NCBI RefSeq assembly: GCF_000725345.1
Contig: NZ_CP008852.1
Span: 2,782,001-2,846,000 of the forward strand
Direction: 5' to 3'
Origin: Pelosinus sp. UFO1
GTDB lineage: Bacteria > Bacillota > Negativicutes > DSM-13327
Length of the DNA stretch: 64,000 nucleotides
Below the pieces are notes generated by a model. It saw nothing but the letters and a program-made list of their open reading frames with translations, did not search any database and was not told where the DNA came from. Shown here piece by piece: positions 49,618 to 58,422 of the stretch. A program made the position numbers and the translations under genes. How positions within the stretch are numbered: the first letter of the stretch is position 1; the number at the start of each line of letters is the position of its first letter.

Positions 49618-50556
49618 TTAACAGCCTCCCTTACGGGCTATGACCGCCACCCAGCCACCTTCTTCAATCACTTTATCAACGAGTAAATTATGCTCTAACA
49701 TGACAGCAGCAACATCACTTAATCGCTCACTAATAATACCGCTGGCAATAAAAATACCATTTTCTTTTAAACGTGCTGGAATATCAGCAATTAATTTGAT
49801 AACTACATCTGCAATAATATTGGCAATTACAATATCAGCTTTACCGGTGACGCCTGTCAACAAGTCTCCTTGGGCTACTTTTACAACATGTTCGACTTGA
49901 TTAATTGCAACATTTTCTGCAGCTACTCTAACGGCAACACTGTCTAAATCCACGGCTTGCACACTAGCAGCACCTAACTTAGCCGCGGCTATGGATAAAA
50001 TACCTGAACCTGTCCCCACATCAAAAACAAGACACCCAGGTTTAACAACTTCTTCTAAGGCACGACAGCACATTGCAGTCGTCTGATGAGTACCTGTACC
50101 AAAAGCCATACCTGGGTCCAATTCGATCACTAGATCATCAGAGGCGGCTTTATACTCTTCCCAAGATGGTTTTATTACAATATATTGACCCACTTTTATA
50201 GGATGAAAGAACTCTTTCCATGAGGATGCCCAGTCTTCTTCCTGTACTTCACGGCACTGCATGTCCCCTATTCCTTTATCCATACCACGAGAGGAAATCT
50301 GCTGAAATTCCTCTTCAAAATTACGCAACTTTTCATCTAATTGGTCATCAACAGGCAAATACGCTTTAACGGTTACAACTTCTGTATTACTTTCTTGCTC
50401 AATATCAGAATAATCCCATACACCTGATGTTAGGTATGAATTCACAAGTTCAGGATCTTCAATGACCACACCACTTGAACCTAATTCATGAAAAATATTG
50501 GCCACCGTTTCGGCAGCCTCGTGTGTAGTCTGAATACTTATTTCAGCCCATTTCAT
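49618..50556 (-). CDS. prmA: Ribosomal protein L11 methyltransferase
   Basis: A 312-residue PrmA: an N-terminal L11-binding domain and a SAM-binding domain with DPGMAFGTGTHQTT, VFDVGTGSGILSIAAAKLGA and VIANIIADV. It trimethylates L11. It is co-oriented with dnaJ, separated by a hairpin at 50650-50688. Confidence 0.96.
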   Translation of the reverse strand: MKWAEISIQTTHEAAETVANIFHELGSSGVVIEDPELVNSYLTSGVWDYSDIEQESNTEVVTVKAYLPVDDQLDEKLRNFEEEFQQISSRGMDKGIGDMQCREVQEEDWASSWKEFFHPIKVGQYIVIKPSWEEYKAASDDLVIELDPGMAFGTGTHQTTAMCCRALEEVVKPGCLVFDVGTGSGILSIAAAKLGAASVQAVDLDSVAVRVAAENVAINQVEHVVKVAQGDLLTGVTGKADIVIANIIADVVIKLIADIPARLKENGIFIASGIISERLSDVAAVMLEHNLLVDKVIEEGGWVAVIARKGGC

Positions 50557-50697: not shown

Positions 50698-51834
50698 TTA
50701 TACCCCAAATACATCCTTCACTTTTTTGAAAAAATTCTTTTGCTCAGGATTAATATTCTCACCACTAGCTTTCCCAAATTCTTGTAAAAGTTCTCGTTGT
50801 TTTTCATTTAATTTTTGTGGTGTGACTACTTTGACCCTGACATGCTGATCACCACGACCATTTCCTCTTAAATGAGGAATCCCTTTTTCTCGTAAGCGGA
50901 AAATAGTGCCTGATTGAGTTCCTTCGGTAATTTTCAGTTTCACTTTGCCATCCAGTGTTGGAACTTCAATTTCATCCCCTAATGTAGCCTGAACGAAGCT
51001 GATCGGAACTTCGCAGATCACTTCACTACCTTCCCGTGTAAACAGTTTGTGAGATTTTACAAAAATATAAACATACAAGTCACCAGGAGGCCCTCCACGT
51101 AGTCCAGCTTCCCCTTCATGACTAACTCTAAGTCTTGAACCATTATCTACACCAGCTGGAATTTTGACTTTAATTTTGCGTTTTACACGAGTTTTACCTT
51201 GTCCATGACACTCTTTACATGGCGTTTGAACAATTTTACCTTCTCCATGACAACGGTCACACACCCTAGTATTTATCATACGGCCAAAAGGTGTGTTTTG
51301 GGCCACTTGAATTTGACCGGTGCCTTTACACTGACCACAAGTTTCAGCATGAGTTCCAGGTGCAGCACCTGACCCGCTACAATTTTTACAATCTTCTGTT
51401 CTTGGAATCTGTATTTCTGTTTCTACCCCAAAAGCAGCTTGTTCAAAAGTAATTTCCATGTCATACCTAAGGTCAGATCCTTTTTCAGGCCCTGGTTGAC
51501 GTCCACCAAAACCAGACTGTCCACCAAAAAACATGTCAAAAATATCGTTAAATCCACCGCCGCCGCCAAAGCCACCAAAGCCGCCACCACCACCACCGGC
51601 ACCGCCTTCAAAAGCAGCGTGACCAAATTGATCATATTGCGCCCGACGCTCACTATTTGATAAAACTTCATATGCTTCATTTACTTCTTTAAATTGTTCT
51701 TCCGCTTCTTTAGTATTATCACGATTTACGTCAGGATGGTACTTACGGGCCATCTTACGAAAACCCTTTTTTATTTCATCATCAGACGCACCTTTACTTA
51801 CGCCTAATACTTCATAGTAGTCGCGTTTACTCAC
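50698..51834 (-). CDS. dnaJ: Chaperone DnaJ
   Basis: A 378-residue type I DnaJ: a J domain with HPD (about 33-35), a Gly/Phe-rich linker that includes a run of glycines, four CxxCxGxG zinc repeats ([32 protein letters not shown]) and the substrate domain. It stimulates DnaK. GTG 51834 lies 6 nt after GGATGG; a longer in-frame extension has no ribosome site. Confidence 0.97.
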
Positions 51835-51952
51835 ATTACACCATCCTAAAAACTTTTTAGTTATAACTATAAAAAACAATTGAACCACAAAAACACGATG
51901 TCACAATCGTGTCAGTGTGTTTTATAGTTATTACCGCTATCAATTATATAGT

Positions 51953-52016: not shown

Positions 52017-53843
52017 CTATTTCTTGTCTTCATCAACAACTTTGTACTCAGCGTCCACTACTTTTTCATCCTTGCCGGTCTCAGGTGCTTGTTGCCCTGC
52101 AGCTTCTTGTTCCTTATTATAAACGGCAGAGGTCATTTCATATAATGGTTTTGTTAATTCTTCTGTATCTGCTTTAATTTTTTCTGTATCCGTACCTTTA
52201 AGGCTTTCTTTCAATGTATCCGCTGCCTTTTGTACTTTTGCTAGCAATTCTTTATCTTCTACTTTATCGCCCATATCTTTAATGGTTTTTTCAGCCTGAT
52301 AAACTAAAGAATCAGCATTATTGCGAACTTCTACTTCTTCCTTACGAGTTTTATCTTCTGCTGCGTGCGCCTCTGCTTCTTTTACCATGCGTTCAATATC
52401 ATCTTTGCTCATACCACCTGAAGAGGTAATGGTAATTTTTTGTTCTTTGCCAGTCCCCAAATCCTTGGCAGATACATGTACAATACCATTGGCATCAATA
52501 TCAAAAGAAACTTCGATGCGTGGTACACCACGTTGTGCTGGTGGAATTTCTTTTAGTTCAAAACGACCTAACGTTTTATTATAGGACGCCATTTCTCTTT
52601 CCCCTTGTAGAACATGAATATCTACAGATGGTTGGTTATCAGCGGCAGTAGAGAATACTTGGCTCTTTGATGTAGGAATCGTAGTGTTACGCTCAATTAT
52701 TTTAGTGAATACGCCACCTAGCGTTTCAATCCCTAAGGACAATGGAGTAACGTCAAGTAATAATACATCTTTTACTTCACCTACTAATACACCTGCTTGA
52801 ATTGCAGCACCTACAGCTACACACTCATCAGGATTTACACCACGATGAGGCTCTTTACCTAAGAAGCTTTTAATTGCTTCTTGTACTGCAGGAATACGAG
52901 TAGAACCACCCACCAAAATTACTTTTTCAATATCTTTAGGAGACAATCCAGCATCACTCATAGCTTGACGAGTTGGCCCCATAGTTGATTCTACTAGATC
53001 AGCAGTTAACTCATCAAATTTAGCTCTTGTTAAGTTTACTTCTAAATGTTTAGGGCCAGTTTGGTCTGCTGTAATAAATGGTAAATTAATATTCGTTGTT
53101 AACACACCAGAAAGTTCAATTTTGGCTTTTTCAGCAGCTTCACGCAGACGTTGTTCTGCCATACGGTCTTTTGATAAATCAATACCATTTTCCTTTTTGA
53201 ACTCAGCAACTAACCATTTCATAACGCGTTCATCAAAGTCATCCCCACCTAAACGGTTATTACCATTTGTAGCTTTTACTTCGAATACACCTTCACCAAG
53301 TTCTAAGATAGATACGTCAAACGTACCACCACCCAAGTCAAAAACAAGTATAGTATGGTCGTTTCCTTTATCAATACCGTAGGCTAACGCTGCGGCTGTT
53401 GGTTCATTAATAATACGTAACACTTCTAAACCAGCAATCGTTCCAGCATCTTTTGTTGCTTGACGTTGACTGTCATTATAGTAGGCAGGTACGGTAATAA
53501 CAGCTTGTGTTATCGTTTGACCTAAATAAGCTTCTGCATCAGCCTTTAATTTTTGTAAAATCATCGCGGAAATTTCTTGTGGGGTATATGATTTATCATC
53601 AATTTTTACTTTATGGTCAGTCCCCATATGTCTTTTAATCGAGCTGATTGTGCGTTCTGGATTAGATACAGCTTGACGTTTTGCTAATTGACCAACTAAA
53701 CGTTCATCTGTCTTTGAAAAACCCACTACAGAAGGGGTAATTCTATTTCCTTCAGCATTTGCAATAACAACAGGTTCTCCACCTTCCATTACTGCTACAC
53801 ATGAATTTGTTGTACCAAGATCTATACCAATTACTTTTGCCAT
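52017..53843 (-). CDS. dnaK: Chaperone DnaK (Hsp70)
   Basis: A 608-residue Dna[19 protein letters not shown] at the N-terminus, the ATPase motifs [15 protein letters not shown] (as [14 protein letters not shown]) and [13 protein letters not shown], and a substrate domain ending [23 protein letters not shown] precedes the ATG. Confidence 0.98.
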
Positions 53844-53906: not shown

Positions 53907-54458
53907 CTAATTACTTACTACTTTTACCATACTAGGTCTTATTACTTTACCTCGTACAGCGTAGCCCTTTTGCAATTCTTCGACAATAGTACCATCTGGT
54001 TGTTCAGCATCCTCTACTCTCATAACAGCTTCATGCTGCTGAGGATCAAAACCCTTACCAACTGCCTCTACTGTTGTCAAGCCACTTTTTTCTAAGACTT
54101 GTGCCAATTGACGATAAATCATCTCTACTCCAGAAAGCATCTTATCCGCATCCTGAGTAGCAACACTGCCTAAGGCACGTTCAAAGTTATCAAGCACTGG
54201 CAACAACTCTAAGATAACATTCTGCGCCACAATATTTGATAACTCTTCCTTTTCTTGACGAGTCCGTCGCCGAAAATTATCAAAATCAGCCTGTAATCGC
54301 TTATAACGATCATTGGCTTCTTCTAAAAGGCGATCTTTACCAAGAAGTTCTGCCTCTAATGAAGTGCCATCGGCTTCTTCTATCACTTCTACCGTCGGTT
54401 CCGATGTTGTAGCGTTATCTTCAATTTCCTGTTCTAACTTTTCTTTTGTTTCACTCAA
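53907..54458 (-). CDS. grpE: Nucleotide exchange factor GrpE
   Basis: A protein of about 183 residues with an acidic N-terminus, a long coiled coil (RLLEEANDRYKRLQADFDNFRRRTRQEKEEL type) and a beta-wing ending GYAVRGKVIRPSMVKV. It exchanges ADP on DnaK. The start is probably TTG 54458, because GGGGTG is spaced 5-6 nt from it; the GTG at 54467 overlaps the ribosome site. Confidence 0.95.
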   Translation of the reverse strand: MSETKEKLEQEIEDNATTSEPTVEVIEEADGTSLEAELLGKDRLLEEANDRYKRLQADFDNFRRRTRQEKEELSNIVAQNVILELLPVLDNFERALGSVATQDADKMLSGVEMIYRQLAQVLEKSGLTTVEAVGKGFDPQQHEAVMRVEDAEQPDGTIVEELQKGYAVRGKVIRPSMVKVVSN

Positions 54459-54494
54459 ATATATCACCCCATATATAAAATTCCATTGTTTATT

Positions 54495-56063
54495 TTAATT
54501 TTTGCCACCAAGATTAGCTGTTTTGCTGCTGTTCTCTTCTTTTTTCTTAATAATCGTATCTATACGCAAAATAGCTACTGCCACTTCACCAGCTGCTTTA
54601 ACTGCATGTAGTTTCACAGTTGCTGGATCCACGACTCCAATGTCCAGCATATTAATGATTTCCCCAGTATCACAATCTATACCCAAGGAGTCTTTTTTCT
54701 GCTTTGCATGGGCGGCAATAACCTCTTCTACTTTTTCTAGCGGGTTGTAACCAGCATTTTCTACGATTTGTGCTAAGGGCCTACGTAAAGCTTGGGTGAC
54801 ACAATCAACGCCATATGCCGCCATACCTTTTACTGCCTCCCGTGAGGCATTGATCTCACGGCTAATGGCAACCTCAATGGAGCCACCACCAGGAACATAA
54901 CCACCTTTAATGGCAGCTTGCACACTAGAAGCTGCATCTTTGGCAATACGTTGTCTCTCTCCTACAACTTCTTCTGTTGCAGCACCTACCAAAATTGTCG
55001 CCATTGGCTTACCAGCGCCACCTAAAATACGAATATGTTTTAACTTTTCATCCTCATATACCCTTGCTGCTACGCCTAAATAACCAGCGATATCGGTACA
55101 CTCTTTTTTAAGACCTGTGCGTTTTATCATTCGGGCCCCTACATGTTCAGCGGCACGTCGTAATTCCTCCGCAGCCACTCGCTGAATCACCAAAACGCCA
55201 GAATCTGTAAGTATTTCCTCAGCAATATCATGAACACCTCTGTCTACCAAAACGACCTTAACGCCAAGCTCCACAATTTTATGTATATTATTTTTAAATT
55301 CATTTTGCAGCTCAAGATAACGTTTAAAACCAGATTCGGTACGCAGGGCTTCATCCCCTATTTCTTCAGGTTCTAAAGCATCATCAATAACTAACACTTT
55401 TGCCTGACTTACTTCTAGGGGCATCTCTGTAGTCATTCGTTTCTTATCAATAATAACACCCATGAATACTTCGTTCTCAGCACCTTCTTGAGATAGGATA
55501 ATGTCTGCTAATTTAAAATTATTTTCGCATAATTTTTCAATTCCTATAAGGCCTGCAGCTCGAATCACTAGTTCAGCAATATCTTTATATTCACGCCCAG
55601 CAATCATGGCAATATTAAGTAACACAGGATCATGTAAGTCATGAATTTGATGGGCCCGTTGTTTTATTCCTTCTAATGCTAGAGCAATACCGTACTTAAT
55701 ACCTTCAATAACTCGGGCAATAGGTACACCTCTTACTACTTGGTTTACCCCTTCTCCCACCAAGCCACCAGCCATAATCGTAGCCGTCGTTGTACCATCT
55801 CCTACTTCAGCTTGCTGGGCTCTAGCTATATTAATCAGCATCTTAGCGGCAGGATGATCTACATCCATTTTTTCTAGAATGGTAACACCATCATTTGTAA
55901 TAATCACTTCACCAAAAGAACCAAGCAGCATAGTATCGAGCCCCTTAGGGCCAATTGTTCCCTCAACAGCTGCCGTTACAACACGAATCGCATTGGCATT
56001 TGTCATAAGTGCTGCCAGCCGTTCATCCGCTTCAGAACCATTGCCAGCTTTATTTAGCTTCAT
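54495..56063 (-). CDS. Archaeal-type (TCP-1/thermosome-like, group II/III) chaperonin
   Basis: A 522-residue chaperonin. TIGPKGLD (36-43), NDGVTIL (57-63), GDGTTT (88-93) and VPGGGS (390-395) show the complete ATP site. EVSQAKVLVIDDALEPEE with VLVDRGVHDIAEEIL are thermosome-like, and the overall sequence is much closer to TCP-1/thermosome than to GroEL. Bacterial members of this type (group III, described from Carboxydothermus) form lidless-cofactor rings with a built-in lid and need no GroES; none is encoded here. It sits between hrcA and grpE under a CIRCE operator, so heat-shock control is likely. GGAGGAACCAG precedes the ATG. Confidence 0.92.
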   Translation of the reverse strand: MKLNKAGNGSEADERLAALMTNANAIRVVTAAVEGTIGPKGLDTMLLGSFGEVIITNDGVTILEKMDVDHPAAKMLINIARAQQAEVGDGTTTATIMAGGLVGEGVNQVVRGVPIARVIEGIKYGIALALEGIKQRAHQIHDLHDPVLLNIAMIAGREYKDIAELVIRAAGLIGIEKLCENNFKLADIILSQEGAENEVFMGVIIDKKRMTTEMPLEVSQAKVLVIDDALEPEEIGDEALRTESGFKRYLELQNEFKNNIHKIVELGVKVVLVDRGVHDIAEEILTDSGVLVIQRVAAEELRRAAEHVGARMIKRTGLKKECTDIAGYLGVAARVYEDEKLKHIRILGGAGKPMATILVGAATEEVVGERQRIAKDAASSVQAAIKGGYVPGGGSIEVAISREINASREAVKGMAAYGVDCVTQALRRPLAQIVENAGYNPLEKVEEVIAAHAKQKKDSLGIDCDTGEIINMLDIGVVDPATVKLHAVKAAGEVAVAILRIDTIIKKKEENSSKTANLGGKN

Positions 56064-56153
56064 TCCTGGTTCCTCCCAATTACAGTTATATTATATGTAT
56101 GATAGAGTTAGCAATACCTTATTATGGTGAAAAGTTATTCTAACTCTATCGTT

Positions 56154-57182
56154 TTACACTTTATATTTTTTCAGTACTTCACCTAAATGGTTATGCATAA
56201 ACTCCAACACTGACATCACTTTACCATAATCCATTCTTGTTGGACCTAATACAGCTACAGTCCCAACTACCTGCCCATCAATACGATAGGTAGCCTGCAC
56301 CATGCTGCAGTCTTGAATGCCACTATATTTATTTTCATCACCAATCGTAACAATAACACCATCATTTTTTTGATTCTGCAAGATATTCGATAAGAGTTGT
56401 TCTTCTTCTAACATATCCAGAAATGATTTTACTTTGTCGATGTTCTTAAATTCGGGCTGGCTTAACAATTGCGTCGTACCACCAAGATACAACCTTTCGT
56501 TTTTTTCCACCACTAAAGCCCTTTTTAAGATCCCCATGGCAGTTTCAAATAAATCCACGTCTACTAACATATCATTTTGGATATCTCTCAAAATAGACGC
56601 TTCAATGTTGTCAAAAGACAAACCAGATAAACGTCGATTGATATGTTCTGCAATACGTTGTAAATCATTAAAAGAAAGACCTTTGGGTATATCGATTACC
56701 TTATTCTCGACAAAGCCTGTGTCAGTTACAACTACTAAAATAGCACGACAATCATCAAATGGCAGGAACTTTAGGTATTTAAAGGCACACTGTGATACCT
56801 GAGGCACCAACACTAACGAAATGTTACTAGTAATTTTCGATAAGATTTTCGCAGTTTCCTGAAAAACTTCCTCAACGTGACGAGTTTTTTCCTGATACCA
56901 GTTTTTTATTAATGTGATTTCTTTATCTGACATCTGAGTTGGCTCTAATAAAGAATCTACATAAAAACGATAACCTTTAGCAGAAGGAATTCGTCCTGAT
57001 GAAGTATGGAGTTGTTCAATATAACCTAATAGTTCAAGATCAGCCATTTCATTACGAATGGTTGCTGGGCTAACACCCAAATCATGCTTTCTAGCAATCG
57101 TGCGTGAACCAATAGGCTCTGCGGTGGAAATATAGTCATCAACAATCGCTTGGAGAATACTACGTTTTCTCTTATCTAACAT
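56154..57182 (-). CDS. hrcA: Heat-shock repressor HrcA
   Basis: A 342-residue HrcA: an N-terminal winged helix (RKRSILQAIVDDYISTAEPIGSR, VSPATIRNEMADLELLGYI), a GAF-like middle and an inserted dimerisation part. It represses at CIRCE and is activated by chaperonin, typically GroEL. ATG 57182 follows GGAGGTGG; an upstream extension would run through the operator. It opens the operon. Confidence 0.97.
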   Translation of the reverse strand: MLDKRKRSILQAIVDDYISTAEPIGSRTIARKHDLGVSPATIRNEMADLELLGYIEQLHTSSGRIPSAKGYRFYVDSLLEPTQMSDKEITLIKNWYQEKTRHVEEVFQETAKILSKITSNISLVLVPQVSQCAFKYLKFLPFDDCRAILVVVTDTGFVENKVIDIPKGLSFNDLQRIAEHINRRLSGLSFDNIEASILRDIQNDMLVDVDLFETAMGILKRALVVEKNERLYLGGTTQLLSQPEFKNIDKVKSFLDMLEEEQLLSNILQNQKNDGVIVTIGDENKYSGIQDCSMVQATYRIDGQVVGTVAVLGPTRMDYGKVMSVLEFMHNHLGEVLKKYKV

Positions 57183-57202: not shown

Positions 57203-57229
57203 TTAGCACTCTACACTGTAGAGTGCTAA
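57203..57229. promoter_or_regulatory. CIRCE operator
   Basis: TTAGCACTC, nine bases, GAGTGCTAA: a perfect match to the CIRCE consensus, 20 nt upstream of hrcA. HrcA binding here gives autoregulation and control of the whole chaperone operon. Confidence 0.97.
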
Positions 57230-57285: not shown

Positions 57286-58422
57286 TTACGCAGGTAAAAA
57301 TGCACGAAATACTACGTTGCCATACTTCATACCTATTGTTGTTAAATATATTTGATTTTCTTCTACTACAATCAACTTTTGTCTTGTTAGTTTTTCAAGG
57401 ACATCTTGGTATTGTTCCATAAAATTATACGGAAAATATTTGTTAAACTCATTCATCGATAAACCTTGTACTGTACGCAAAGCTAAAAATACATATTCAG
57501 CCATAGCCACTTCTATAGCTGGTGTCTCTCGGTCTTTAATTGGCGATTTCCCCATTGAAAGACATGTTATATATTGAGATACATCACTTATATTAGAAAT
57601 CCGCTCTTTGTGCAAAAAAGAATGAGCAGCTGCACCTACCCCCACATAAGGCTGATATTGCCAATATTTTAAATTATGACGGCACTCAAAGCCAACTTTC
57701 GCAAAGTTCGATATTTCATACCTCATAAATCCATTTCTAGGCAAAAACTCCGTTGTATATTGATACATTTCCTCATCAATTTCTTCATCTGGCAGCATAA
57801 GTTTTCCTTGCTTTTGCATTGCCTGAAAAGGTGTCCCCTCTTCTACCTTCAATCCATAAGCCGATATATGGGTAACATTAAGCTTAATTGCTTGCCGCAC
57901 ACTAGCCTCTAAGTCCAAAAGAGATTGTCCTGGTAATCCATACATTAAGTCAATATTAATATTTTCAAACCCTGTACTTTGTGCTACTTGTATCGCTTGC
58001 ATTGCCTCTTGCCCACAATGTATTCTACCAATTGACTGCAGTAGTTTATCAGAAAAGGTTTGTACACCAAAACTAATTCGATTCACACCACTTGCCTTTA
58101 AAGCCCGTAGTTTGTTTTGATCGACTGTACCAGGATTCGCTTCTATACTAATTTCAGCGTTTTTATCAATAACAAAGGAATTGTGTACACATTCTAATAT
58201 CTCCCGCAAGGAATCCGTTGCTAATACGGTAGGAGTTCCACCACCAATATATATTGTATCAATAACATCCCCAGATAAAACACCGCCCTTGCCAGAAATT
58301 TCCTGACATAAGGCGGCAACATAGGGCAGATATAAATGGGTCAAATTGGCCTCGGATGGAAAATCACAGTATAAACACTTTTGCTGACAAAAAGGAATGT
58401 GAATATATAGACCCATTTTCAT
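57286..58422 (-). CDS. hemW: Haem chaperone HemW (radical SAM, formerly HemN-like)
   Basis: About 378 residues. IPFCQQKCLYCDF carries the cluster cysteines, GGGTPTVL the SAM glycine motif, and the C-terminal HemN-C domain ends FPYNFMEQY...GMKYGNVVFRAFL. The CxxxCxxC lacks the fourth cysteine of true coproporphyrinogen oxidase HemN (CxxxCxxCxC), so HemW is the better name; it delivers haem to haem proteins. ATG 58422 or 58416 are equally possible. Confidence 0.92.
   Translation of the reverse strand: MKMGLYIHIPFCQQKCLYCDFPSEANLTHLYLPYVAALCQEISGKGGVLSGDVIDTIYIGGGTPTVLATDSLREILECVHNSFVIDKNAEISIEANPGTVDQNKLRALKASGVNRISFGVQTFSDKLLQSIGRIHCGQEAMQAIQVAQSTGFENINIDLMYGLPGQSLLDLEASVRQAIKLNVTHISAYGLKVEEGTPFQAMQKQGKLMLPDEEIDEEMYQYTTEFLPRNGFMRYEISNFAKVGFECRHNLKYWQYQPYVGVGAAAHSFLHKERISNISDVSQYITCLSMGKSPIKDRETPAIEVAMAEYVFLALRTVQGLSMNEFNKYFPYNFMEQYQDVLEKLTRQKLIVVEENQIYLTTIGMKYGNVVFRAFLPA

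Follow-up and report, generated by a model that had tools for sequence, protein, structure and literature searches.

An intact Group III chaperonin gene within the dnaK operon of Pelosinus sp. UFO1

The window, by which we mean the whole 64,000-nucleotide stretch of the Pelosinus sp. UFO1 genome that was analysed (NZ_CP008852.1, positions 2,782,001 to 2,846,000), contains an open reading frame on the reverse strand that spans exactly positions 54495-56063, begins with ATG and encodes 522 amino acids with zero internal stops. The protein matches the Pfam family Cpn60_TCP1 over nearly its full length (residues 30-508, 2.4e-109). The reading frame and this match, together with the PDB sequence match, residues, tree and fold described below, confirm that it is an intact gene for a Group III (bacterial thermosome-like) chaperonin, here called cpn3. 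It is the second of six genes that all lie on the reverse strand and for each of which Pfam confirmed the identity. In the order of transcription these are hrcA, encoding the heat-inducible repressor HrcA (56154-57182; PF01628 and PF03444, with NCBIfam TIGR00331 above its cut-off), cpn3, grpE (53907-54467; PF01025), dnaK (52017-53843; PF00012), dnaJ (50698-51888 as listed, with the true start probably near 51834; PF00226, PF01556 and PF00684) and prmA (49618-50556; PF06325), the next gene of the conserved operon. A match to cpn3 was also found in Pelosinus fermentans JBW45 (NZ_CP010978.1, 2175889-2177424).

A CIRCE operator with the perfect consensus TTAGCACTC-N9-GAGTGCTAA is located at 57203-57229, about 20 bp upstream of the ATG codon of hrcA at 57182 (0 mismatches, with 0 such sites expected in shuffled sequence). 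The alternative GTG start of hrcA at 57305 in the list of open reading frames was rejected as too far upstream, because the operator would then fall inside the gene. Directly upstream of CIRCE is a candidate sigma-A-like promoter on the reverse strand (57269-57241, TTGACA-17-TGTATTTT), a consensus match at 10 of 12 positions with a -10 element of TATTTT preceded by TG, and with the joint best score in the scanned region. Gene order and operator thus support the placement of cpn3 as the second gene of a dnaK operon that is predicted to be controlled by HrcA through CIRCE. The initial annotation had described a chaperonin with these limits between hrcA and grpE under a perfect CIRCE, and was correct on each of these points.

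We also searched the whole genome, which consists of one contig of 5.1 Mb, for chaperonin genes and CIRCE sites. Only two chaperonin genes were identified, cpn3 and groEL, the latter located at 1433484 and following the only groES gene of the genome (1433111). Perfect CIRCE sites were present in three places: in front of the dnaK operon, in front of groES-groEL (1433038) and upstream of htpG. Since groES-groEL is present under its own operator, cpn3 adds to GroEL/ES and replaces nothing, as had been proposed initially. The third site, at 1298904-1298930, is situated about 50 bp upstream of the HSP90 gene htpG, and this position makes HtpG a probable member of the HrcA regulon in the Pelosinus genome.

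Among natural proteins in the PDB, the top sequence match to Cpn3 was the chaperonin Ch-CPN of Carboxydothermus hydrogenoformans (5x9u, 3.7e-137), with the thermosomes far behind at 4e-68 and weaker. The single best match overall was 9rwq, an entry titled ACII, which we read as the resurrected ancestral protein of Group III described in PMC12696368, while the chain 9rwp with the same title looks like a thermosome. A predicted model of the Cpn3 structure (mean pLDDT 88.9) had the two Ch-CPN structures as its first matches, 5x9v with a TM score of 0.89 and 5x9u with 0.88. A tree built from 32 proteins split off GroEL (support 100/100), the thermosomes (100/100) and Group III (94/84) from the remaining sequences by one branch each. 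Long branches connect the three groups, so that no claim is made about their mutual order. A larger quick tree agreed and placed Cpn3 with the Group III proteins (46 rows, SH-aLRT 90).

The active-site residues were identified by alignment to Ch-CPN, with roles as assigned to that protein in PMC5635000. The catalytic residues D58 and D376 (Asp56 and Asp373 in Ch-CPN) are present in Cpn3, as are the P-loop GDGTTT with D89, T91 and T93, the gamma-phosphate contact R157 (position 155 in Ch-CPN) and the pivot L442. The hydrophobic residues of the lid, L240, F246, Y249 and F256, correspond to L237, F243, Y246 and F253 in Ch-CPN, and the predicted model has a helix at residues 243-265 in the built-in lid. 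R157, D376 and L442 showed no variation across 135 aligned Group III proteins. The initial annotation had named two findings that would speak against a Group III chaperonin, loss of the conserved ATPase residues and a placement inside GroEL; D58, D376 and GDGTTT were all there, and the phylogeny placed the protein with Group III and outside GroEL.

To describe the distribution of the gene, we sampled 299 genomes spread evenly over the phylum, of which 103 including this one, or about a third, carried a Group III gene, as counted from the listed matches. The arrangement is thus ordinary. In a follow-up of 75 carriers, with one or two per genus, both GroES and HrcA were kept in every genome and no carrier without GroEL/ES was found. 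Two further carriers, one 87% complete (G323) and the other a MAG (G362), had no GroES match and a single chaperonin match each, for which incomplete assembly is the likelier explanation. The hrcA gene was located directly upstream of cpn3 in 117 of 124 distinct Group III loci, and the exact CIRCE core was present in 107 of these 117; the remaining ten comprised three loci cut by a contig edge and seven from Armatimonadota-type genomes. In 16 relatives selected as non-carriers of cpn3, hrcA was followed directly by grpE and dnaK, and 15 contained the exact CIRCE core. The operon is constant apart from cpn3, which comes and goes like an optional unit.

Taken together, we consider it very probable that cpn3 encodes an ordinary, functional Group III chaperonin that is made together with GrpE, DnaK and DnaJ, with HrcA tuned most simply by GroEL/ES. 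By homology, the product would form a double ring of 16 subunits with a built-in lid and no need for GroES, in which clients would be folded at the expense of ATP. Because cpn3 is the second gene of the putatively HrcA/CIRCE-repressed dnaK operon, it would be made in step with GrpE, DnaK and DnaJ. During heat stress HrcA would no longer be kept active, and the dnaK operon, groES-groEL and probably htpG would be derepressed. The Group III cage may then take clients from DnaK or act in parallel with it, and the simplest assumption is that GroEL/ES sets the activity of HrcA, in line with the feedback by GroEL-GroES described for Bacillus subtilis (PMC8957991).

An alternative for the last step is that the Group III chaperonin itself modulates HrcA, alone or together with GroEL. 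A free cage would keep HrcA folded and repressing, while an overload with clients would free the operon, creating a self-limiting loop beside the repressor gene. Consistent with such a role, cpn3 stays next to hrcA even in lineages that are far apart, and CIRCE is found on both chaperonin operons. Moreover, at about equal DnaK identity within the class, the identity of HrcA to that of the window was 60% in carriers (n=2) and 41-57% in non-carriers, although this comparison is weak since it relies on few loci with shared ancestry and possibly fast lineages. However, hrcA and grpE are neighbours anyway, and the position of cpn3 next to hrcA is therefore inherited from the operon. The clean absence of cpn3 from the 16 relatives with an unchanged operon indicates that HrcA works without it, and GroES was retained in all of the carriers followed up. 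Two non-carriers (L178 and L180) had HrcA proteins with 65-66% identity to that of the window, about the same as in carriers of equal DnaK identity. A possible effect of lacking cpn3 on how far HrcA has diverged was seen in a few families of the class, but neither in these two nor outside the class, and is not convincing. With cpn3 always accompanied by GroEL/ES where testable, dispensable, and leaving no consistent mark on HrcA, GroEL alone is the simpler modulator. The comparative data thus mildly disfavour a tuning of HrcA by the Group III protein, and we regard this role as unlikely. If it were true, bacteria with both chaperonins would have a second or even the main folding modulator of HrcA in the Group III protein, and the repressor would read the load on two different cages.

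Much less probable still is a recent transfer from an archaeon, by which cpn3 would be a genuine thermosome gene of the archaeal Group II. The fold resembles that of thermosomes, the best NCBIfam matches were to thermosome models, and a placement of Cpn3 among the thermosomes was narrowly not rejected at the 5% level (p-AU 0.065). However, the NCBIfam matches were all below the curated cut-offs, and the sequence identity to thermosomes was only about 30%, whereas Ch-CPN reached 45% and the other Group III proteins of bacteria for the most part 60-97%. Furthermore, the alignment revealed a 6-residue gap at the position of the nucleotide-sensing loop of thermosomes, and an arginine is present at position 157, as in all of the 135 Group III proteins. 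On the basis of these sequence comparisons we consider a recent archaeal transfer to be excluded; an ancient archaeal origin of Group III as a whole is a matter of published debate (PMC12696368). Least probable of all is a divergent extra copy of GroEL (Group I), with which Cpn3 shares the Pfam family and about 28% identity to the GroEL of its own genome, but its placement inside GroEL was rejected (p-AU 0.010) in agreement with the tree, it has a built-in lid segment that GroEL lacks, its best structural match is to Group III, and there is no cpn10 gene beside it, the only one in the genome adjoining groEL.

As a Group III chaperonin, Cpn3 is best compared to Ch-CPN (PDB 5x9u and 5x9v; PMC5635000), which belongs to the same family, has the same domain plan and active-site residues, and likewise has a built-in lid with conserved hydrophobic residues, no nucleotide-sensing loop and a gene inside the dnaK operon. 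The two differ in their rate of evolution, which in the trees is comparatively high for Ch-CPN and lower for Cpn3, as for the majority of the family, and F461 and M430 of Ch-CPN correspond to C464 and I433 in Cpn3, the usual state of the family. The Group III loci of other Bacillota (Pelosinus, Anaerospora, Lucifera, Pelotomaculum and Desulfofundulus) have the same order of hrcA, cpn3, grpE, dnaK, dnaJ and prmA with CIRCE and encode proteins with 62-85% identity, differing from the window only in sequence divergence and spacer length. Archaeal thermosomes (Group II, such as Mm-cpn) share the fold and the built-in lid, but their lid is longer and they have the nucleotide-sensing loop of 6 residues. 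The hrcA-grpE-dnaK-dnaJ-yqeTUV operon of B. subtilis has the same gene order and control by HrcA and CIRCE (PMC8957991) but, unlike the window, no chaperonin gene between hrcA and grpE.

Group III genes have been described in the DnaK operon with one exception, and an interaction with DnaK was suggested (PMC5635000). The same placement is given in PMC5220055, where the relation between Group III and GroEL is described as uncharacterised. For Firmicutes, PMC5904260 states with reference to Techtmann and Robb 2010 that HrcA regulates the genes of Type I as well as those of Type III. The remark in the initial annotation that a Group III chaperonin in the dnaK operon is established knowledge was right; the operon position and the shared control by HrcA are already known, and the arrangement has been in print since 2010. 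The locus examined here adds one well-preserved example, the Pelosinus genome being complete and having perfect CIRCE sites in three places. Pelosinus and its relatives, with or without cpn3 in the same operon, would offer a good setting for studies of the role of Group III beside GroEL and of whether HrcA senses it.

The spacer between hrcA and cpn3 is 90 nt long in the window and contains a stem-loop on the reverse strand (56101-56150, z -3.3), in which GATAGAGTTAG at 56150-56140 pairs with CTAACTCTATC at 56111-56101 in a stem of 11 bp. Variant stems were observed in the corresponding spacer of some Pelosinus relatives. As a general feature of Group III loci the stem-loop was discarded, because in many others hrcA and cpn3 are no more than about 14-40 nt apart. 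In B. subtilis, the mRNA is processed downstream of hrcA. By analogy, the stem could possibly be a processing or stability element, and might separate hrcA from the chaperone message.

A few Group III loci deviated from the common pattern. In the seven Armatimonadota-type loci (L111, L116, L118, L120, L123, L126 and L129), hrcA and cpn3 are kept together and in most cases followed by grpE, but a CIRCE was not recognisable in front of hrcA and dnaK was not found beside grpE; both the repressor target and the operon layout seem to differ. Two other loci (L035, 283-1386, and L097, 7968-9059) had cpn3 followed directly by a DnaJ-like gene, and neither grpE nor dnaK was found between or beside the two genes. 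Apparent internal stops in the cpn3 genes of Pelosinus relatives turned out to be natural C-termini at residue 510, and an apparent 426-base insertion in another cpn3 gene (L125) was a run of N, that is, an assembly gap.

The prototype Ch-CPN was placed on a long Group III branch in both trees, its rate of evolution being well above that of most other members. The biochemistry of the prototype thus comes from a divergent, fast-evolving member from a thermophile, and Ch-CPN may be an atypical model of Group III. Finally, the otherwise invariant catalytic Asp58 is replaced by Ala in 6 of the 135 Group III proteins (L011, L020, L100, L102, L105 and L127); the three of these that we inspected contained the motif TNAGVTIL and had kept the remaining active-site residues.
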